Shown here: positions 46,630-55,267 of the stretch, piece by piece | Layout: the number at the start of each line of letters is the position of its first letter | Numbering within the stretch: position 1 is the stretch's first letter | NCBI RefSeq assembly: GCF_029603165.1 | Contig: NZ_JAQSVC010000003.1 | Span: 186,001 to 250,000, forward strand | Source of the DNA: Galbibacter pacificus | Lineage (GTDB): Bacteria; Bacteroidota; Bacteroidia; Flavobacteriales; Flavobacteriaceae | Reading direction: 5' to 3' | DNA length: 64,000 bases | Notes under the pieces: model-generated | What the model was told of the DNA's origin: nothing | The model's database searches: none | The model's input: the letters and a program-made list of their open reading frames with translations, nothing else | Position numbers and translations under genes: made by a program

Positions 46630-46632
46630 GTG

Positions 46633-47106
46633 ATGCAAAACAAAAAAACATATACGGTTGAAGAAGCCAAACGAAGACTGGAAGCTTATTGCGCCTACCA
46701 AGAACGTTGCCATGACGATGTGGTAAAAAAACTGCGGTCCATGCACATGATACCCGTTGCCGTAGACACCGTTGTAGCACACCTTATCGAGCATGGCTTC
46801 CTGAACGAAGAACGCTTTGCACGCAGCTATGCCAGGGGGAAATTCAACATAAAAAAATGGGGGAAAAACCGTATTGTACGCGAACTTAAGCATAGAAATA
46901 TCTCCCGCTTTAACATACACCTTGCCTTAAAGGAAATACCCGACGCCGATTACCATAAAACCTTTAACGAGCTTGCCGAAAAGAAGGCCGGGCAACTTAC
47001 CGGGACAAACCTGTTTAAGAAAAAGCAGCAACTGGCAAATTACCTGCTATACCGTGGATGGGAAAGCGATCTTGTCTACGAAAAAATAAACGATCTCTTG
47101 GGCTAA
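46633..47106 (+). CDS. recX: Regulatory protein RecX
   Basis: 157 residues from ATG 46633, with an overlapping GTG at 46630 one codon earlier. RecX is a RecA inhibitor made of tandem three-helix repeats; 'AYCAYQERCHDDVVKKLRSM' and 'LIEHGFLNEERFARSYARGK' are its conserved segments, and 'KWGKNRIVRELKHRNIS' follows. The C-terminus 'LANYLLYRGWESDLVYEKIN' is typical for the second and third repeats. The gene is stand-alone with recA not in view. Reading starts at the ATG because the GTG-ATG pair lies in the same frame and adds only one residue. Confidence 0.93.
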   Translation: MQNKKTYTVEEAKRRLEAYCAYQERCHDDVVKKLRSMHMIPVAVDTVVAHLIEHGFLNEERFARSYARGKFNIKKWGKNRIVRELKHRNISRFNIHLALKEIPDADYHKTFNELAEKKAGQLTGTNLFKKKQQLANYLLYRGWESDLVYEKINDLLG

Positions 47107-47537: not shown

Positions 47538-48404
47538 CTATGTTTTTATCCCGAGCTCTTGGTGCGTTTTGGCTATGGCGCGCTCGTTTTTATGGTCTAT
47601 CCATGCCTGCCCCTTCCATTTGCGCATTAAATTGTCGTAACTGCGCATTACAACAAGATTATAGGCAGCCTTGATAAAATGAGCGGGCTTTTTGGGCAGC
47701 GATCGCAGGCTCATGGAAAACCCAGGGGTAACATATTTCATATAGTGCCAATAACCCTCTGGCATATACAGCATTTGGCCGTGCTCCAGGTTGGCAATAT
47801 AGCCCTGTGCCTGTTTCAATGCCGGCCATTTGTGGTAGTCGGGGTTATCAAAGTCTATATCTTCGCGCGATATCAACGAATGTGGCACCTTGTACATGTA
47901 TTTGGACTGGTCTGGCGGAAAAATAATGCACTGCTTCTTCCCGTGGAAGTGAAAATGGAGGATATTGGAGTAATCTATGTCAAAATGCATGAATACCTTG
48001 CTATTCTCCCCACCAAAAAACAGCATGGGCAACTGCTTTACAAGCTTTATGCCAAGATCGGGCCAATTAAAGTCGTTTTGCAAAGAAGGCACTTCCTTCA
48101 TTAAATTATAGAGAAAAATCCTATAGCTGGTAGGCTTGGATTCCAGTAGTTTTATGTACTCGCCCATCTTCATTTTTGCATGCGGCTCGTTAAAACCGTC
48201 TTCATGCGTAACCGGCCTGTCGTCGTACAGCGGTACTGTTTTGTCTCCCGCCACATGATTTATATAACTTAAATGCCATTTCTTGTATGCCGGCCAATCT
48301 TCTGTCAACCTTTCAATTACAACAGGTTTTTGGGGCTTTACATAATTGGCAACAAAGTCCTCTTTACTAATTGTTTGTAGGCGAGGTATTTCCTTTAAGT
48401 TCAT
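47538..48404 (-). CDS. Cupin/JmjC-like (cupin_8) oxygenase
   Basis: About 288 residues from ATG 48404; a longer frame to 48485 would add 27 hydrophobic residues and is less likely. 'MLFFGGENSKVFMHFDIDYS' has the iron-binding His-x-Asp, and the second metal His is expected in 'YMPEGYWHYMKYVTPGFSMS'. 'KQCIIFPPDQSKYMYKVPHS' is also typical of the cupin_8/JmjC-like fold. Proteins of this class are 2-oxoglutarate-dependent hydroxylases that act on proteins or small molecules; the substrate is unknown. The gene follows bioB on the same strand, 131 bases away, and may or may not belong to the biotin group. Confidence 0.85.
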   Translation of the reverse strand: MNLKEIPRLQTISKEDFVANYVKPQKPVVIERLTEDWPAYKKWHLSYINHVAGDKTVPLYDDRPVTHEDGFNEPHAKMKMGEYIKLLESKPTSYRIFLYNLMKEVPSLQNDFNWPDLGIKLVKQLPMLFFGGENSKVFMHFDIDYSNILHFHFHGKKQCIIFPPDQSKYMYKVPHSLISREDIDFDNPDYHKWPALKQAQGYIANLEHGQMLYMPEGYWHYMKYVTPGFSMSLRSLPKKPAHFIKAAYNLVVMRSYDNLMRKWKGQAWIDHKNERAIAKTHQELGIKT

Positions 48405-48535
48405 AAAAAATAACTTGAAATAAACTTTATAAAAGTACAAATTGTTTGCAATTATAGCGTATAGAATAGCTTTAATTACAAACAATTGGCATTATGCGGA
48501 GTTAAAAAATGCATGTACAGCAGCTATAAAACCCG

Positions 48536-49636
48536 CTATATGGCCTTGGTTTTTTGGGCTTCTTCCTTGGCCAGTTCGTTTTTCTGGATTTTATGGCCGG
48601 GGCGTGTCCATTTAGGGTTTTCTCCAAGCTCTTGAAGTTTAGATTCCGTGGCTTCGACCGTTTCTGGCTGTGCTTTTTTAACAAATGGTTTCTGCGGGTT
48701 AAGCCCCAGCATTTTAAACATCTGCATATCTTCGCTCACGTCGGGGTTTGGCGTGGTAAGCAGCTTGTCCCCGGCAAAAATAGAGTTGGCCCCAGCAAAG
48801 AAACACATGGCCTGCCCTTCGCGGCTCATCTCTGTGCGTCCTGCCGAGAGGCGCACCTGTGTTTGTGGCATAACAATACGGGTGGTGGCTACCATGCGTA
48901 TCATTTCCCATATTTCCACGGGCTTCTCGTTGGCCATTGGGGTACCTTCTACGGCTACCAGCGCATTAATGGGCACCGATTCTGGCTGCGGGCTCAAGGT
49001 AGACAAAGCAACCAGCATGCCTGCGCGGTCCTCAACGCTTTCGCCCATACCAATAATGCCCCCGCTACAAACCGTAACATTGGTTTTGCGCACGTTGTCT
49101 ATGGTTTGCAGGCGGTCTTCAAAACCACGCGTAGAAATTACCTCTTTATAGTATTCTTCAGATGTGTCCAGGTTATGATTATACGCATACAGCCCAGCTT
49201 CTGCCAAGCGCTGCGCCTGATTTTCGGTAAGCATGCCCAGCGTACAGCACACCTCCATCTCCAGTTTGTTTATGGTGCGTACCATTTCCAGCACTTGGTC
49301 AAACTCGGGCCCATCTTTTACATTTCTCCATGCCGCTCCCATGCAAACGCGCGAACTCCCCGCGGCTTTTGCGCGCAGTGCCTGTGCCTTTACGTGCGGT
49401 ACCGTCATTAAGTCGTTCCCCTCTATATCGGTATGGTACCTGGCGGCCTGTGGGCAGTAACCGCAGTCTTCCGGGCAGCCCCCGGTTTTAATAGAGAGCA
49501 AGGTAGACACCTGTACGGTATTCGGGTCGTGGTATTCCCTGTGTACCGTTGCCGCTTGGTAGAGCAGCTCCATTAACGGCCTGTTATATATTTCCAATAT
49601 TTCTTCCTTGGTCCAGTTGTGTCTTATCGCACTCAT
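48536..49636 (-). CDS. bioB: Biotin synthase
   Basis: 366 residues, slightly longer than E. coli BioB (346), with a C-terminal tail rich in Lys and Glu. It is a radical-SAM enzyme that inserts sulfur into dethiobiotin. The [4Fe-4S] motif is Cys54, Cys58 and Cys61 in 'TGGCPEDCGYCPQ'; the [2Fe-2S] ligands are in 'SSRVCMGAAWR', 'MEVCCTLGML', 'VTVCSGGIIG' and 'VRLSAGRTEM'. The ATG at 49636 is standard. It is the last gene of the minus-strand biotin group but is separated from the ketoacyl synthase gene by 275 bases with REP-like hairpins. Confidence 0.97.
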   Translation of the reverse strand: MSAIRHNWTKEEILEIYNRPLMELLYQAATVHREYHDPNTVQVSTLLSIKTGGCPEDCGYCPQAARYHTDIEGNDLMTVPHVKAQALRAKAAGSSRVCMGAAWRNVKDGPEFDQVLEMVRTINKLEMEVCCTLGMLTENQAQRLAEAGLYAYNHNLDTSEEYYKEVISTRGFEDRLQTIDNVRKTNVTVCSGGIIGMGESVEDRAGMLVALSTLSPQPESVPINALVAVEGTPMANEKPVEIWEMIRMVATTRIVMPQTQVRLSAGRTEMSREGQAMCFFAGANSIFAGDKLLTTPNPDVSEDMQMFKMLGLNPQKPFVKKAQPETVEATESKLQELGENPKWTRPGHKIQKNELAKEEAQKTKAI

Positions 49637-49658
49637 AGAAACTAATTTTTCGGGGCTT

Positions 49659-49727
49659 CCTCCCGACAGAAAATGTCGGGAGGCGGGTTTTCGTTACTCG
49701 CTTCCCCAACGAAAATGTCGGGGAAAG
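49659..49727. repeat. Two REP-like hairpins upstream of bioB
   Basis: CCTCCCGACA-GAAAA-TGTCGGGAGG (49659-49683) is a perfect 10-base hairpin. A second, degenerate copy (CTTCCCC ... GTCGGGGAAAG, 49701-49727) follows. Both share the direct repeat GAAAATGTCGGG at 49669-49680 and 49711-49722. It resembles a dispersed intergenic repeat. It could also act as an attenuator or terminator between the ketoacyl synthase gene and bioB. Confidence 0.65.
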
Positions 49728-49911
49728 CTCAAACATGCACTCAATCCCTAAGCCAATTCGGTTTACAGGTTCAAAAATAGTAATTCATTTCGGGTTACGT
49801 TAAGATCAGCTCATAATTTATTATCAAATCAATAAATTCCTCAAAGAGATTCAAGCCTTTACCCTACACCCTGAACCTCCTCACAAAACATATATTTGCC
49901 CAATCTATACT

Positions 49912-51069
49912 TTATACCGAAAGCAGCACGCTTACCGCATTTCCCCCAAACCCTACCGCATTTACAAGCACTTTTTTTATGTGCCCGGGCATTTTTTTGT
50001 GTTCAATATAAGGTACCTTTATAAACGCTTGGTGCTGCATCATCAATACGGCCAGTTCCAGGCTCAGCATTCCCGACGCTCCAAACGTATGTCCTATTTT
50101 CCATTTGTTGGTAGTAAGAGCGGGCATGTCTTCCCCAAAAATCTTTTCAATCGCCTTTACTTCGGTACTATCTCCCTTAATGGTACCCGGCGCGTGCATG
50201 ACAACAACATCTACCAGAGAGGGATCGGTGTTCCTTAGTGCCATTTTCATGGATTTCTGGAAACATTCGGCCTCCTCGGAGATAGAAATGTTATGCTTTA
50301 ATACCTCCGTAGCGTAACCAACCCCTTCTACATAGGCCAATGCCTCCCCGCTTGGGTTTGCTTCCATGCAAACAACGGCGGCGCCTTCGCCCAGTGCCAT
50401 GGAGTTGCGTTTTTTGTTCAAGTCCAATGCCTTACAGGGGTAATCATCCTGCGGATTTTCGGCATAGATTTTCAATGCCTTCATTTGGGCTATGGTAAAT
50501 GGCGTTAACGAAGCCTCGCTCCCGCCAACCAGAAACTTGTTGCTCATCCCGCTTTTAATCCACGCCACACCATTTACCAGTGCGTGCAGCGCGGTGGAAC
50601 AGGTAATGGAATGCGACAGCTCAGGTCCCTGAGATTGCAAATCGTGCGCCAGCCAAGAAGAAATATTGCCCAAGGTAGTGGTAGGCGAAGCAAGTGTGCT
50701 CGATTTTTTATCGGTTAAATATTCTTGGTAATACTTTTCAAACAGCGAAGTTGCCCCACGGGAAGACCCAATATTGATACCAAAGTTGTCCCCCTTTTTC
50801 CAATCTGCCTGTTCAACGGCTTTACGGGCCGTCTGCATTGCATATAATACAGAGTTGTCAAGGCTTTTGTATTTAACATCAGACGCCCTAATGGCTTCTA
50901 TTTCGGTTTTACTCCCGCCCGATAGTGCCGCCACCAATGCCTTGTGCGTGCCAAAATCTTTTTCGGTTAAAAAATGGTGGTTGTTTAAATAGTTTTCCCA
51001 GGTTTCCCGTGCAGTACTGCCAAGCGCGGATATTGAAGATAGTGCCGTAATGGCAATTTTAGTTTTCAT
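49912..51069 (-). CDS. Beta-ketoacyl-ACP synthase-like protein in the biotin group
   Basis: 385 residues, FabB/FabF-like in length. The catalytic triad is intact: Cys157 in 'SHSITCSTALHALV', His292 in 'VVVMHAPGTIKGDSTEVK' and His327 in 'NKWKIGHTFGASGMLSLE'. The loop around His292 differs from the usual H-G-T-G-T as H-A-P-G-T. The protein may condense malonyl-ACP with a starter acyl chain in the cytoplasm. Its place between bioB and a SET-domain gene, next to bioA, bioD and bioF, suggests a role in making the pimeloyl moiety of biotin; no bioC or bioH is in the window. General fatty-acid FabF is the alternative, but that gene normally lies next to acpP. Confidence 0.88.
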   Translation of the reverse strand: MKTKIAITALSSISALGSTARETWENYLNNHHFLTEKDFGTHKALVAALSGGSKTEIEAIRASDVKYKSLDNSVLYAMQTARKAVEQADWKKGDNFGINIGSSRGATSLFEKYYQEYLTDKKSSTLASPTTTLGNISSWLAHDLQSQGPELSHSITCSTALHALVNGVAWIKSGMSNKFLVGGSEASLTPFTIAQMKALKIYAENPQDDYPCKALDLNKKRNSMALGEGAAVVCMEANPSGEALAYVEGVGYATEVLKHNISISEEAECFQKSMKMALRNTDPSLVDVVVMHAPGTIKGDSTEVKAIEKIFGEDMPALTTNKWKIGHTFGASGMLSLELAVLMMQHQAFIKVPYIEHKKMPGHIKKVLVNAVGFGGNAVSVLLSV

Positions 51070-51265
51070 CTATAATTCAATCTACATTTTGCATTTGCAA
51101 AGCTACTAACCTGAGCTCAATTATTATAACAAAGTCAGAATTAATAAAAGTATTTGATTATAAGGTAGGCTTTTGTTTAGGGTCGGTCTATGCAAATAAG
51201 TGCATCACCGCCAAGTATACAGACAAACTTGGTGGCAATAGCTAAAAATAAGGTTGCTTATACTG

Positions 51266-51853
51266 TTATTTTTCGGCGTAATAACAGGTAAGTATGGAAT
51301 CCAGAACGGCTTCTCCCTTTTCTATTTTACGCACTTTTTTCAGCATGCTTTCATTTAGAAACTTAAACAAAGGCTGGTTAACCGCATTGATATGCCGGAA
51401 AGCTTCCTTTAAAACCTCGTCCCAAACGGCGTGGTATTTTAACAGATCGTCCGGATAAACAATTTTTCGTTTGGTGCCCTCGTCTTTTGCCTTAAATGGC
51501 CTGGCTATGTTTAAATATCCGTAATCGTCTGTAAGTTCTTCGCCGGGGTAAATGTCCCGCACGGCAATCTCAAAGTCGTATGGAGTGGTTAAACAATTGC
51601 TTTTAAAGCTATGATTTACAAATTTTGCCATGTCCCAACATAATACATACTCGCCTTTGTTATTCCTAAAGGTAAAGTAGTCTATAATATGTTGGTAATC
51701 GTTGCTCATGTTGGCAACTTGGGCAGGGGTAAGCACAACATCCAGTTGGTCCTGAACCCAGGTAATTGTTCCTTTAGGAATCAATTGTGTAGCCACAACG
51801 CCATGACCTATTTCATCAGAAATAAATCGCAGCTCGGTATGCGGATGAATCAT
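51266..51853 (-). CDS. SET-domain protein-lysine methyltransferase-like protein
   Basis: 195 residues. The SET fold is recognisable from the start 'FISDEIGHGVVATQLIPKG', the SAM/substrate motif 'FVNHSFKSNC' (Asn80, His81, Cys87) and 'YPGEELTDDYGYLN' (Glu105, Glu106, Tyr111). This is the N-H-S-x-x-x-N-C and G-E-E-L-x-x-D-Y pattern of SET enzymes. Such proteins use S-adenosylmethionine to methylate lysine side chains. It lies 39 bases downstream of bioA on the same strand and 196 bases upstream of the ketoacyl synthase gene, an unusual location. A role in biotin synthesis is unproven; methylation of an enzyme is the simplest idea. Confidence 0.85.
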   Translation of the reverse strand: MIHPHTELRFISDEIGHGVVATQLIPKGTITWVQDQLDVVLTPAQVANMSNDYQHIIDYFTFRNNKGEYVLCWDMAKFVNHSFKSNCLTTPYDFEIAVRDIYPGEELTDDYGYLNIARPFKAKDEGTKRKIVYPDDLLKYHAVWDEVLKEAFRHINAVNQPLFKFLNESMLKKVRKIEKGEAVLDSILTCYYAEK

Positions 51854-51892
51854 TGAATGATAAGCAAATAAGTTTTGATCTCTATAGCTAAT

Positions 51893-53161
51893 TTATAGTA
51901 TTTTTTCAATCAAATATTCAATTTTATCATAAATTTTTTGCAATTGTTCATCGGTTATCACATAAGGTGCTGCAATATATATCGTATTCCCTAAAGGCCT
52001 CATAAACAATTTATTATCCAAAAAGAAATTCAATAGTTTATCACGAAGGTTTCCGTACCGTTCCATTTCCAGGTTTAAATCCATTGCATAAATAATTCCA
52101 CATTGCCTTGTCTGGGCAATTCTAGGGTGGCTTTTAATATGCTTGTCAAACTTTTGATGCGATTTGATAACCCGTTGGATATGCTGCTGCATTTCCTCCG
52201 ATTGCAATAACTCTATTCCTGCTATGGCGGCGGCGCAAGCGACAGGATTGGCGCTGTATGTGTGGCCATGAAACAGCCCTTTACCAATATCGTCGCTATA
52301 AAATGCCTGATATACTGCCTCTGTGCAACTGGTAATGGCCATGGGCACCATTCCAGCGGTTAAGGCCTTGCTCAAGCACATAATATCCGGATATGTATTT
52401 AAGTGCAACGAAGCAAAGTGTTTCCCGGTTTTGCCAAAACCTGTCATTACCTCATCGGCAATGGTCAATACGTTTTGCTTTTTGCATTCTTTTATCAATA
52501 ATTCGAGCCCCGATGCATCGTGCATCTTCATGGCGGCGGCTCCTTGTACCAAAGGCTCGTATATAAAAGCAGCTACGTTATTTTCTGCAATAATAGTTTG
52601 TAACCTATACAACACTTCGTGATTGTTCTTCCCATTTGGTACGGGAATGCGTTTTACCGAAAGAAAAAATTCTTCAAACGGACCATTGTAAACCGAAAGC
52701 CCGGAAACCGACATGGCACCAAAAGTATCACCGTGAAAACCTTCTTCAAAAGCAATTAGCACATTGCGCTTATCTCCTTGATTAAAATGATACTGAAGCG
52801 ACATTTTAATAGCTACATCAACCGAAGTAGAACCGTTATCAGAAAAAAATAGTTTGTTTTGATTATCGGGAAGAATACCGATAAGTTTTTCAGATAAGTG
52901 TACCGCTGGCTCGTGTGTGAGCCCTGCAAATACAACCTGGTCGAGCGTTTCTACTTGTTTTTTTACCCGTTCCACAATATAAGCATTGCAATGCCCATAT
53001 GCCGAGGTATACCAAGAAGCAATCCCGTCTATATATTCTTGTTTGTCCTCGGTATACAAGACAGCGCCCTTTGCATGGGTAATTGCAATACTATCGGGGT
53101 GTAATTTATGCTGTGTTAATGGGTGCCAAAGGTGTTTTTTGTCTCTTTCTGAAAGTGCCAT
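51893..53161 (-). CDS. bioA: Adenosylmethionine-8-amino-7-oxononanoate aminotransferase
   Basis: 422 residues, normal for BioA. The enzyme converts KAPA to DAPA with SAM as amino donor. The PLP lysine is Lys265 in 'MCLSKALTAGM' and the pyridine-N aspartate is Asp236 in 'TIADEVMTGFGKTG'. 'SWYTSAYGHCNAYIV' and 'HGHTYSANPVACAAAI' are conserved BioA segments, and the order HLWHPLTQHK at the N-terminus identifies BioA rather than another class III aminotransferase. It lies between bioD and the SET-domain gene, all on the minus strand. Confidence 0.96.
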   Translation of the reverse strand: MALSERDKKHLWHPLTQHKLHPDSIAITHAKGAVLYTEDKQEYIDGIASWYTSAYGHCNAYIVERVKKQVETLDQVVFAGLTHEPAVHLSEKLIGILPDNQNKLFFSDNGSTSVDVAIKMSLQYHFNQGDKRNVLIAFEEGFHGDTFGAMSVSGLSVYNGPFEEFFLSVKRIPVPNGKNNHEVLYRLQTIIAENNVAAFIYEPLVQGAAAMKMHDASGLELLIKECKKQNVLTIADEVMTGFGKTGKHFASLHLNTYPDIMCLSKALTAGMVPMAITSCTEAVYQAFYSDDIGKGLFHGHTYSANPVACAAAIAGIELLQSEEMQQHIQRVIKSHQKFDKHIKSHPRIAQTRQCGIIYAMDLNLEMERYGNLRDKLLNFFLDNKLFMRPLGNTIYIAAPYVITDEQLQKIYDKIEYLIEKIL

Positions 53162-53302
53162 TTACTATTATTTAAACAAAATACACAACAAAGATGCGTA
53201 TTCTATTCAGCAAAAAAAACTATGAACTCATTTAACTTTTTATGGAAGCAAAAAATCAGTCATTTTGGTACAATAGAATCCCTTTTTGAGGGCGATGACT
53301 AT

Positions 53303-53953
53303 TTAGGAAACTTTATTCGATAGAATAGCTTCGGAAAATTCTGTCAAGTTTTTTGCAAATTTTTTGGCGTATTTACGAATGGTTTCTTGTGTAAATTCTT
53401 TTTCTTCATCGATTCTACCGATAACCGGAACATTCGTCATTTTTTGTATAATTTGTTCGGTCGTTGGGTGTTCTTTTCCGCTAAAAATTATGGCCACATC
53501 AAAACCTTGCTGTTTTAATAGGTTTACGGTTAAAAGTGTATGGTTGATGCTTCCCAAATAGTGCCTGGAAACTACAATTATTTTGTAATTTGGCGCTATA
53601 ATGTCCATAATGGTATTTTGTTCGTTCAAGGGGACCAATAAACCTCCGGCGCCTTCAATCACCAATGTATTTGCAGTCTCGGGCAGCTTTATTTTATCAA
53701 TGTCAATATGAATGTTATCTATTACAGCTGCCGCATGCGGACTTATAGGCACTTTTAGCGCATAACTATTAGGGTGAAATTTAGTTTGCGTATTGGAGAT
53801 TAATGCTTTTACTTTATGCGTATCTGAATTGTCCAGATCTCCCGACTGGATTGGTTTCCAATAATCTGCTTCCAAAGCTTCGGCAATAATTGCAGATGTA
53901 ATCGTTTTTCCTACCTCAGTAGAAATTCCCGTTACAAAATATCTAGGCTTCAT
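53303..53953 (-). CDS. bioD: Dethiobiotin synthetase
   Basis: 216 residues. BioD forms the ureido ring of dethiobiotin with ATP and CO2. The P-loop is 'TGISTEVGKTITSAI' (Gly9 to Thr17), followed by 'ADYWKPIQSGD', the 'VIEGAGGLLVPLNEQNTIMD' motif and 'NHTLLTVNLLKQQGFDVAI'. The ATG at 53953 is the clear start. It lies between bioF and bioA in the biotin group with gaps of 38 and 141 bases. Confidence 0.96.
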   Translation of the reverse strand: MKPRYFVTGISTEVGKTITSAIIAEALEADYWKPIQSGDLDNSDTHKVKALISNTQTKFHPNSYALKVPISPHAAAVIDNIHIDIDKIKLPETANTLVIEGAGGLLVPLNEQNTIMDIIAPNYKIIVVSRHYLGSINHTLLTVNLLKQQGFDVAIIFSGKEHPTTEQIIQKMTNVPVIGRIDEEKEFTQETIRKYAKKFAKNLTEFSEAILSNKVS

Positions 53954-53991
53954 AGTTGGTACTGTTAGTAGTGTTAATCTAATTTACAAAA

Positions 53992-55164
53992 TCACCTGCA
54001 ATTTGCGGTCATTAACAGGTCTAAAACTACAGAAATTTCGTCAAAAGTATTAAAACTATGCATGCAAAAGCGCAAACGCTCTGCTCCTTTTTTTACTGTT
54101 GGCGATAAAATGGGCTTAACATCAAATCCCTTTTGTTGCAGTCCGACCGCTGTTTTTTTTACATTTTCATTGCCGGGAACTACACAACACTGTATTGCCG
54201 AATGACTTGAAATGTATTGTAATCCCGGGGAATGAGTTTTAGCAATTTCATGCTTGAAATATGCTATATTGTCCAGTAATTTTTGTTTATTTTTTTTGAA
54301 TGATGAATCTGTATGCTGCTTTTTTAATTCCTGATAAACGACAAAAATCGTTGCTAGGGAATGTGGAGATAACCCGGTGGTATAAATAAAGCTCCGTGCA
54401 AAATTAACCAAATAATTCTTAAGCTCAATGCTCCCTAAAATGGTCGCTCCATGGCAACCAAGGGCTTTTCCAAAAGTTATAATTCTGGCAAAGACCTTGT
54501 TTTGAAGCTGTAATTCCTGCAATAAGCCTTCACCCGAATCTCCAAATACCCCAACGGCATGAGCTTCGTCTACAATTAAATGTGCGTTGTATTTTTTTGT
54601 CAAAACAGTCAGACTTATCAAATCGGGTGAATCACCATCCATTGAAAAAACCGACTCGGTTACCACATAGACATCGCCTTCTATTATTTGGGCATGCTTT
54701 TTTAATTTTGACTCTAAATCGTTTAAATCGTTATGCTTAAACTTAAAAGATTTGGCATTGCCCATTTGTAAACCATCGCGAATGCTGGCATGGATGTATT
54801 CATCAACTAAAACTACATCCCCACGTTGCGGAACGGAGGCAAAAAAGCCAATGTTGGCATCGTAGCCAGAATTAAACACCAGTGAAGCTTCAGCATCGTG
54901 AAAATCGCACAGCAATGCTTCAACTTCGGTATAAAGTTGATGGTTTCCGGTAAGCAGGCGCGAACCCGTGGCGCCATTTTGCATAATTTTCCTTTCTTCG
55001 AGTAAGGAAGATGTCTGTTTAAAAATTTCTGCCGAGCGCGAAAACCCCAGATAATCATTAGAAGAAAAGTCTACTTTCAAGCAGTCTTCAGGTAATTTCC
55101 GAAGTGCATTTTCGTCTTGTCTTTGCCGTATTTTTTTCAATAGTTTCTTCGGAAATTGTTGCAT
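53992..55164 (-). CDS. bioF: 8-Amino-7-oxononanoate synthase
   Basis: About 390 residues from ATG 55164; an in-frame ATG at 55197 would add 11 residues. BioF joins pimeloyl-thioester and L-alanine to KAPA. 'VDFSSNDYLGFSRS' and 'NGATGSRLLTGNHQLY' are the N-terminal signatures, 'LIVDEAHAVGVFGDSGEG' and 'ITFGKALGCHGATI' carry the PLP contacts, including the Schiff-base Lys in 'FGKALG'. It is the first gene of the minus-strand biotin group (bioF, bioD, bioA, SET, ketoacyl synthase, bioB) and is divergent from an M61 peptidase gene. Confidence 0.95.
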   Translation of the reverse strand: MQQFPKKLLKKIRQRQDENALRKLPEDCLKVDFSSNDYLGFSRSAEIFKQTSSLLEERKIMQNGATGSRLLTGNHQLYTEVEALLCDFHDAEASLVFNSGYDANIGFFASVPQRGDVVLVDEYIHASIRDGLQMGNAKSFKFKHNDLNDLESKLKKHAQIIEGDVYVVTESVFSMDGDSPDLISLTVLTKKYNAHLIVDEAHAVGVFGDSGEGLLQELQLQNKVFARIITFGKALGCHGATILGSIELKNYLVNFARSFIYTTGLSPHSLATIFVVYQELKKQHTDSSFKKNKQKLLDNIAYFKHEIAKTHSPGLQYISSHSAIQCCVVPGNENVKKTAVGLQQKGFDVKPILSPTVKKGAERLRFCMHSFNTFDEISVVLDLLMTANCR

Positions 55165-55267
55165 GTCCCTACAAATTACAAGTGTAAAATTACACATCCA
55201 AAAATTAAAATTGGTATCTTGAGCTCCATAATCTACTTATTTAATAACCATTTTAAAGCCTGTACCC

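Follow-up and report, generated by a model that had tools for sequence, protein, structure and literature searches.

The BioZ protein of Agrobacterium, other α-Proteobacteria and Rhodothermus marinus is described as a 3-oxopimeloyl-ACP synthase, a β-ketoacyl-ACP synthase (KAS) encoded in the biotin cluster that replaces BioC-BioH. The published reports give it a conserved pocket arginine, of a kind that Hu and Cronan had expected (PMC7645780), and 3-oxopimeloyl-ACP as proposed product (PMC7645780, PMC8024396), with residues S84, R147 and S287 at the bottom of the pocket proposed to neutralize the glutaryl carboxylate (PMC8024396). The synthase that we put forward here would likewise stand in a biotin cluster in place of BioC-BioH, with a conserved pocket arginine and 3-oxopimeloyl-ACP as proposed product. 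BioZ, however, is a FabH-type KAS III with a Cys-His-Asn triad, whereas our KAS is a FabF-type enzyme with Cys-His-His, and since the two sit on different branches of the KAS superfamily the likeness would be convergent. The nearest precedent, likened by gene content and not by KAS sequence, is the bio cluster of Desulfovibrio vulgaris, which includes a FabF-type KAS (DVU2563) and has neither bioC nor bioH. The genes of this cluster are reported to show biotin-specific fitness defects, and the route is described as working 'without methyl esters' and as conserved among anaerobes of just a few phyla (PMC10102598). Unlike the locus studied here, the Desulfovibrio cluster has an ACP gene of its own along with one FabG-like gene and two FabZ-like ones, and the system also includes an unlinked nitroreductase (PMC10102598). 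In the Bacteroidota, BioE provides another BioC-independent route to pimelate, but it is a diiron oxygenase that cleaves long-chain acyl groups (PMC12915131), and an unrelated protein. The openly licensed literature, as far as its text was accessible and including PMC9909488, PMC3494674 and PMC6168606, yielded no description of Bacteroidota biotin clusters that include a FabF-type KAS, and none of pimeloyl thioester synthesis in the Flavobacteriaceae except for BioE carriers.

The window analyzed here, a 64,000-nucleotide stretch of the Galbibacter pacificus genome (4.04 Mb, completeness 100), contains a biotin cluster with the gene order bioF-bioD-bioA-SET-KAS-bioB, all on the minus strand; open reading frames and profile matches bear out this order, which a first-pass annotation of the sequence had proposed. 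The genes for biotin synthase (bioB, 48536..49636; TIGR00433, 402.6 bits, cut-off 225), DAPA aminotransferase (bioA, 51893..53161; TIGR00508, 525.7 bits, cut-off 405) and dethiobiotin synthase (bioD, 53303..53953; TIGR00347, 120.1 bits, cut-off 83.3) are named over cut-off by NCBIfam models. For the 8-amino-7-oxononanoate synthase gene (bioF, 53992..55197), TIGR00858 is the best family, yet its score of 326.8 bits falls under the cut-off of 426.45. The cluster had earlier been taken to end at 55164 rather than at the end of this open reading frame, 55197, which fits a later bioF start codon. Between bioA and bioB lie the genes for a 195-aa SET-domain protein (51266..51853) and for the KAS (49912..51069), the proposed condensing enzyme of the pimelate chain. 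The cluster holds no gene besides these six, and hence no dedicated ACP, FabG-like or FabZ-like gene.

The KAS comprises the N- and C-terminal ketoacyl-synt domains of Pfam, and its best NCBIfam match is fabF (TIGR03150), although the score of 148 bits is far below the 493.75-bit cut-off for the housekeeping KAS II. The intact catalytic triad that had been read from the translation is encoded correctly in the DNA, as reading of the sequence and alignment agree, with codons at 50599..50601 (Cys157), 50194..50196 (His292) and 50089..50091 (His327) on the minus strand, and not one of the 97 aligned orthologues departs from it. These 97 rows represent 95 distinct sequences, because two genomes are repeated (L157 is L074, and L162 is L075), and they include in the count the KAS of L083, an over-extended open reading frame that is absent from alignment A1. 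An AlphaFold model (pLDDT 82.2, pTM 0.87; weak at residues 101-140) gives support at the level of the fold: the 50 matches that Foldseek listed are without exception synthases of the FabF/FabB type, some of them mitochondrial, and the best is a FabF with 22% identity. In a tree that also included two wrong-frame control reading frames (L061 and L064), visible as long branches, the KAS of bio loci (bio-KAS) form one clade with a support of 95/100.

The distribution of the KAS gene closely follows that of biotin synthesis genes. A family panel of 189 genomes from 185 genera, taken to be Flavobacteriaceae, contains 119 genomes with the KAS and 119 with bioA; both genes occur in 118, neither in 69, and each occurs alone in one (Fisher p = 1e-49, a value that ignores relatedness). 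The KAS thus accompanies bioA in 118 of the 120 genomes with either gene, and both exceptions make sense. The genome with bioA only carries a bioE homologue (54%) overlapping bioF, whereas in the one with the KAS only, which also has bioD and bioF, the synthase gene lies between bioB and a 142-aa open reading frame 36% identical to bioA, apparently a bioA reduced to a fragment. A gene that tracks bioA and gives way to a BioE-type gene shows the pattern of a required but replaceable step. Linkage is similarly conserved. Among the named loci, which are the best 80 of 561 relatives (close ones, most of which carry the name of the Flavobacteriaceae or of one of its genera), a bio gene lies less than 1 kb from the KAS in 79 of 80, and in the 16 other KAS loci of a phylum panel of 198 genomes it lies within 3 kb in all 16 and within 1 kb in 13. 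The gap between KAS and bioA is below 1 kb in 95 of the 118 family genomes with both; in nine the two genes are more than 12 kb apart or on separate contigs, and in Galbibacter marinus the KAS has no bio neighbor in the locus read.

The phylum panel was also used to search for SET, BioC, BioW and BioE-type proteins. Of its genomes, 100 have bioA over cut-off, and these divide without overlap into 61 with a BioC-type protein (147 bits or more), 17 with the KAS, five with a BioE-type gene and 17 with none of these. BioW (PF03744) was found in none of the 198 genomes at E 1e-5, the genome of the window included, while two of 14 control genomes were positive. The BioE-type gene, searched with the L086 protein, which was taken as BioE by motif and not by comparison with EmBioE, was present in five of 198 panel genomes and absent from that of the window. 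Four KAS III are encoded in the latter, and none is BioZ-like by PDB ranking or profile score: for three of them FabH-type entries rank well above the BioZ structures 6kue and 9j6e, and all four score 120-239 bits against a cut-off of 437 on NF004623, a model that we take to stand for BioZ. With no BioC over cut-off (TIGR02072) either, the absence of bioC, bioW and bioZ noted in the first reading of the sequence extends, by these searches and cut-offs, to the whole genome. Near-perfect co-occurrence with bioA, conserved linkage and a genome with no BioC over cut-off together uphold the suggestion, made in that reading, that the synthase is dedicated to biotin (pimelate) synthesis: the KAS is a biotin gene.

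The alignment with E. coli FabF singles out one position of the KAS in particular. Arg104 (codon at 50758..50760, minus strand) aligns with FabF Ile108 (Ile109 counting Met), which together with F202 is described as gating the acyl pocket (PMC7138838). Arginine occupies this column in all 97 bio-KAS rows (95 distinct) and in none of 14 other KAS, which have Ile in 12 cases and Val in two; these are the usable rows of a small control set, four of them near-copies of one another. Six further residues, Thr107, Ser128, Thr131, Thr132, Thr192 and Gln195, show no variation across the 97 bio-KAS; their counterparts in E. coli FabF are Leu, Val, Thr, Ile, Gly and Gly, respectively. The bio-KAS share fold and triad with FabF/KAS II, but differ from it in the arginine, in several invariant polar replacements, in their linkage to bio genes and in their low fabF score. 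Owing to the weak stretch of the model, the arginine is placed in the pocket by the FabF alignment and not by modelled geometry. In that position Arg104 could hold the ω-carboxylate of an acid-ended chain.

The presence of the KAS in the cluster, the failure to find the usual genes for the first step and the conserved pocket arginine suggest that this synthase is probably the family's route to the first half of biotin. We therefore consider it likely, on the strength of sequence comparisons, that pimelate formation in this cluster, and in the biotin-making Flavobacteriaceae with the KAS, is the dedicated task of this KAS, an analogue of BioZ built on a FabF scaffold that would use an unmasked dicarboxyl primer, with the SET protein as a passenger. 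The enzyme would take a primer with a free ω-carboxylate, held by Arg104 in place of the hydrophobic Ile108 of FabF, and would condense it with malonyl-ACP through the decarboxylative Cys-His-His chemistry typical of KAS. We somewhat favor glutaryl-CoA or glutaryl-ACP as this primer. The product would then be 3-oxopimeloyl-ACP, which FabG, FabZ and enoyl reductase from housekeeping fatty acid synthesis may convert into pimeloyl-ACP for BioF; as no methyl ester would be made along such a route, neither BioC nor BioH would be needed. If so, a single candidate gene would account for pimelate in the 115 of 185 sampled genera of the family in which the KAS was found, with Arg104 as a prediction at the level of a residue. 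Elongation of a dicarboxyl primer would have been invented a second time, beside BioZ, and nature would provide an example of a FabF pocket turned into a dicarboxylate pocket, which could help in producing dicarboxylic acids and biotin.

The choice of primer is where the main alternative arises. The KAS might instead prime on malonyl-ACP and act twice (C3 to C5 to C7), turning unmasked malonyl units into pimeloyl-ACP in the manner proposed for D. vulgaris but borrowing the housekeeping ACP, FabG and FabZ, a reading that we consider less likely. Glutaryl-CoA dehydrogenase occurs in 114 of the 119 KAS-carrying family genomes, and glutaryl-CoA is thus a plausible metabolite in them, but the enzyme is missing from the other five and present in 59 of the 70 genomes lacking the KAS, so that its distribution does not indicate the primer; the five genomes without it count in favor of malonyl. 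A pocket arginine would suit a malonyl primer as well, and the D. vulgaris cluster, with DVU2563 and neither bioC nor bioH, is reported to be needed for biotin-free growth (PMC10102598). The dedicated ACP, FabG-like and two FabZ-like genes of that system are nonetheless missing from the window's cluster and from some of the named loci: of the 71 complete bioF-D-A-KAS runs in these loci (among the best 80 of 561 relatives), 14 hold no other open reading frame of at least 70 aa, so that there, as in the window, neither an ACP gene nor a FabG or FabZ gene accompanies the cluster. A lone dedicated KAS is the pattern seen with BioZ, though this is not decisive. It is likewise doubtful that a single FabF-type synthase builds the chain from malonyl through glutaryl to pimeloyl, out of unmasked malonyl units, across the Flavobacteriaceae; if it did, an enzyme with an arginine pocket would remove the need both for the methyl-ester disguise of BioC-BioH and for lysine-derived glutaryl-CoA.

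Less in keeping with the data is an accessory role for the KAS, for instance in boosting fatty acid flux or limiting chain length, with pimelate supplied by an unknown enzyme encoded elsewhere. The 17 of 100 bioA-positive panel genomes with neither KAS nor BioC-type nor BioE-type protein imply that unknown routes exist, one of which could also serve here, but an accessory function fits poorly with the pairing of KAS and bioA in 118 of 120 family genomes, with the BioE-type gene in the bioA-only genome and with several invariant differences from FabF, and we consider it unlikely. More improbable still is a classical BioC-BioH route in which a diverged BioC hides among the methyltransferases of the genome and the KAS merely helps. 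The BioC model does give 12 weak matches in the genome of the window (best E 1.8e-16), and the phylum has BioC-like genes within bio clusters that miss the cut-off; these, however, still reach 147-172 bits (L039 was read in such a cluster), whereas the best listed matches for the window's family reach 65-76 bits. Every one of the 198 panel genomes gives matches to this model at E 0.001, and the weak ones consequently carry no weight.

The SET-domain protein, in which the first-pass annotation had seen a possible substitute for BioC, matches PF00856 only (44.5 bits, cut-off 22.4) and no PDB sequence at E 0.01. Its NHS and GEEL motifs are present as had been reported, and its gene adjoins bioA in Galbibacter orientalis and lies between bioA and the KAS in Joostella atrarenae; among the KAS loci read, these two and the window are the only ones with SET in the bio cluster, and in another Galbibacter genome it is beside neither bioA nor the KAS. 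Of the 16 other panel genomes with a SET match, the 11 with the strongest were read (the remaining five matches are weak, E 1e-5 to 1e-3), and none of these loci shows a bio gene over the 13-16 kb inspected; in 12 of the 17 KAS-carrying panel genomes a search at E 0.001 gives no match to SET at all. Across the phylum panel four of seven genomes with a strong SET match carry the KAS (p = 0.001), but this association vanishes within the family part of that panel, where three of five do (Fisher p = 1) and the other two lack both bioA and the KAS. The conserved co-occurrence with bio genes predicted for both proteins is thus found for the KAS and not for SET, and the idea that SET belongs to the pathway or stands in for BioC, a misleading lead, is set aside because its linkage and its distribution among genomes speak against it. 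That SET and KAS act together, with SET methylating a carrier, an enzyme or the malonyl carboxylate in place of BioC, is already largely refuted by this evidence and strikes us as extremely improbable, their shared position between bioA and bioB in the window, the place of SET in the two relatives and the intact motifs notwithstanding. The SET gene looks like a lineage-specific passenger.

Other genes also occur within bio loci of relatives. Between bioF and bioD a small gene recurs, which matches DUF2007 in the three cases examined, two of them over cut-off. A sigma-factor/TraB insertion is present in some bio loci, and in some genera the stretch between the KAS and bioB encodes a Band_7 protein as well as one of 192 aa.

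The FabF-type ketoacyl synthase (KAS) of the bio cluster in the window is a biotin gene, a reading put forward in the first-pass annotation and upheld by our survey of its neighbourhood in other genomes. Among 189 Flavobacteriaceae genomes (185 genera), 119 encode the KAS, 119 encode bioA and 118 encode both, a co-occurrence that, like the linkage described below, far exceeds chance (Fisher value 1e-49 for KAS and bioA, ignoring relatedness). The one genome with bioA only (G305) encodes a 211-aa protein that overlaps the start of bioF and is 54% identical to our BioE-type query, the protein of locus L086. In the one genome with the KAS only (G358), which also has bioD and bioF, the gene lies between bioB and a 142-aa ORF that shares 36% identity with bioA; this bioA remnant (L190:10410-10838, minus strand) sits beside a 522-aa ORF on the opposite strand in an otherwise complete cluster. 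Physical linkage is likewise preserved: the distance between the KAS and bioA is below 1 kb in 95 of the 118 genomes and below 12 kb in 109; in nine the two are farther apart or on different contigs. Across the 198 genomes of the phylum panel, a clear KAS orthologue (at least 158 bits, the next match scoring 107) is found in 17, all with bioA over its cut-off, and each of the 16 loci other than that of the window has a bio gene within 3 kb of the KAS. In the named loci, the best 80 of 561 KAS relatives, which have two KAS sequences in common with the phylum-panel loci, a bio gene occurs within 1 kb in 79, the exception being Galbibacter marinus; the closest relatives of the window's KAS among these 80 belong to Galbibacter and Joostella, which suggests Flavobacteriaceae as the family of its genome.

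The ORFs of the cluster read bioF, bioD, bioA, SET-domain gene, KAS and bioB on the minus strand, as had been described, and the catalytic triad previously assigned to the KAS was confirmed from its codons in the DNA itself. NCBIfam cut-offs are passed by bioB, bioA and bioD; bioF has its own family as best match, yet scores below that model's cut-off. Ketoacyl-synthase domains are recognised in the KAS, which fits the fabF model weakly and passes the cut-off of no NCBIfam model; PF00856 is the sole match of the SET protein. The intergenic gaps of the cluster contain no ACP-size ORF, and the largest of them, the 275 bp between bioB and the KAS, holds no ORF above 50 aa. The KAS may have its own promoter in the AT-rich, 196-bp spacer that separates it from the SET gene (51070-51265), because the sequence TAGCTTTG found there resembles what we take to be the Bacteroidota -7 box. 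Downstream of bioB lie a Cupin_8 gene (47538-48485, minus strand) and recX (46630-47106, plus strand); among the best 80 of 561 relatives, a cupin gene is near the KAS in 27 loci and recX in 51.

The absence of bioC, bioW and bioZ, noted earlier for the window, appears to extend to the genome as a whole (4.04 Mb in 21 contigs, completeness 100). Profile searches for BioC return weak matches alone (best E 1.8e-16), and BioW is found in none of the 198 phylum-panel genomes. The genome encodes four KAS III proteins, all of which miss the cut-off of NF004623, presumably the BioZ model, and the three compared with the PDB match FabH-type structures well above BioZ structures. It is also negative for the BioE-type protein, present in five phylum-panel genomes. 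The BioC model is over its cut-off in 42 of the 198 genomes, all from one family, and scores 147-172 bits in a further 24. The 100 genomes with bioA fall into non-overlapping classes: 61 BioC-type, 17 with the KAS, 5 BioE-type and 17 with none of these.

The KAS adopts the FabF fold (best Foldseek match B. subtilis FabF, TM 0.86, 22% identity), and 18 bio-KAS, four of them from other families and 33-49% identical to that of the window, are separated from other KAS by a branch with support of 95/100, in a tree that took in two wrong-frame control rows and in which L084 and L085 form long branches of unsure placement. Its Arg104 aligns to E. coli FabF Ile109 counting Met, that is, Ile108 in literature numbering (catalytic Cys 163). 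Arginine occupies this column in all 97 bio-KAS rows (95 distinct), as against Ile in 12, Val in two and Arg in none of 14 other KAS. Thr107, Ser128, Thr131, Thr132, Thr192 and Gln195 are also invariant in bio-KAS, with Leu, Val, Thr, Ile, Gly and Gly, respectively, as their E. coli FabF counterparts. One study assigns a gating role in the FabF acyl pocket to F202 and I108 (PMC7138838); the F202 column is Met196 in the window's KAS and Met in 92 of 97 rows. For BioZ, it has been proposed that S84, R147 and S287, which lie at the bottom of the tunnel, neutralise the carboxylate that is free in glutaryl-CoA (PMC8024396). By analogy, we infer that Arg104 would hold the free carboxylate of the primer in bio-KAS. 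Two cases of methyl-ester-free elongation by a cluster KAS are known: BioZ, demonstrated biochemically, and the Desulfovibrio system, demonstrated through the fitness of mutants. The D. vulgaris cluster, unlike that of the window, carries a dedicated ACP, a FabG-like gene and two FabZ-like genes (PMC10102598). BioZ is FabH-type whereas bio-KAS has the FabF fold, but both are lone dedicated enzymes of their clusters, and the bio-KAS layout resembles BioZ more than D. vulgaris. Because a single dedicated enzyme without linked ACP or reductases is closer to BioZ, a glutaryl primer is favoured by this comparison over a malonyl one. Glutaryl-CoA dehydrogenase, identified by PDB match, occurs in 114 of 119 genomes with the KAS and in 59 of 70 without it; its distribution therefore makes glutaryl-CoA a plausible metabolite and shows no more. 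No description of a lone FabF-type KAS with Arg at the Ile108 position was found for Bacteroidota in the openly licensed literature.

The SET gene, on the other hand, is not a biotin gene, and the pathway role earlier envisaged for it is rejected. SET matches occur in 16 other phylum-panel genomes, and none of the 11 strongest loci (13-16 kb read each) has a bio gene near the homologue; conversely, 12 of the 17 KAS genomes of this panel lack a SET match at E 0.001. Of its 19 Flavobacteriaceae genomes, five have a strong match, three with the KAS and two with neither KAS nor bioA. Among the best 80 of 561 KAS relatives, the gene appears in two loci, those of Galbibacter orientalis and Joostella atrarenae, in both of which it directly follows bioA, just as it does in the window, and in a genome of the window's own genus (G220) it adjoins neither bioA nor the KAS. 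The protein has no PDB sequence match at E 0.01; judging by its motifs, it could have lysine methyltransferase activity. Paired SET-domain genes in tandem, with proteins 41-46% identical to that of the window, were seen at L033:8720-9963, L034:7323-8539 and L035:7653-8869, and the stretches read there are free of bio genes.

Other bio loci of the phylum show further variation. In genomes without KAS and BioC-type genes, the gene for a conserved protein some 207 aa long overlaps bioF or adjoins bioA (L086:5382-6005, L088:5817-6452 and L093:10159-10809, plus strand; L087:13223-13846, L090:13201-13900, with approximate start, and L189:13348-13983, minus strand). The four of these six proteins that were run against Pfam, one of them over-extended, had no match, and the ExxH-type motifs fit the BioE diiron oxygenase of a recent study (PMC12915131). 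The 17 bioA genomes outside all three classes are G001, G003, G006, G007, G008, G011, G016, G049, G050, G058, G073, G091, G122, G126, G146, G155 and G164. The bioA loci of 12 of them are L089, L091, L092 and L094-L102; L092 and L094 hold a tidy bioA-D-F-B cluster with no pimelate gene seen in it, and at L099 a methyltransferase adjoins bioA. Between bioF and bioD, L070:5043-7033 and similar loci elsewhere carry genes for a TraB/GumN-like protein, a sigma-70-type (ECF-sized) factor and a 204-aa protein with no Pfam match. Many loci have in that place a small DUF2007-matching protein (two of three run over cut-off), as at L073:6590-7003, L076:5534-5944 and L079:13867-14247 and in similar places in many named loci; its gene, absent from the window, overlaps bioD by a few bases in several loci.
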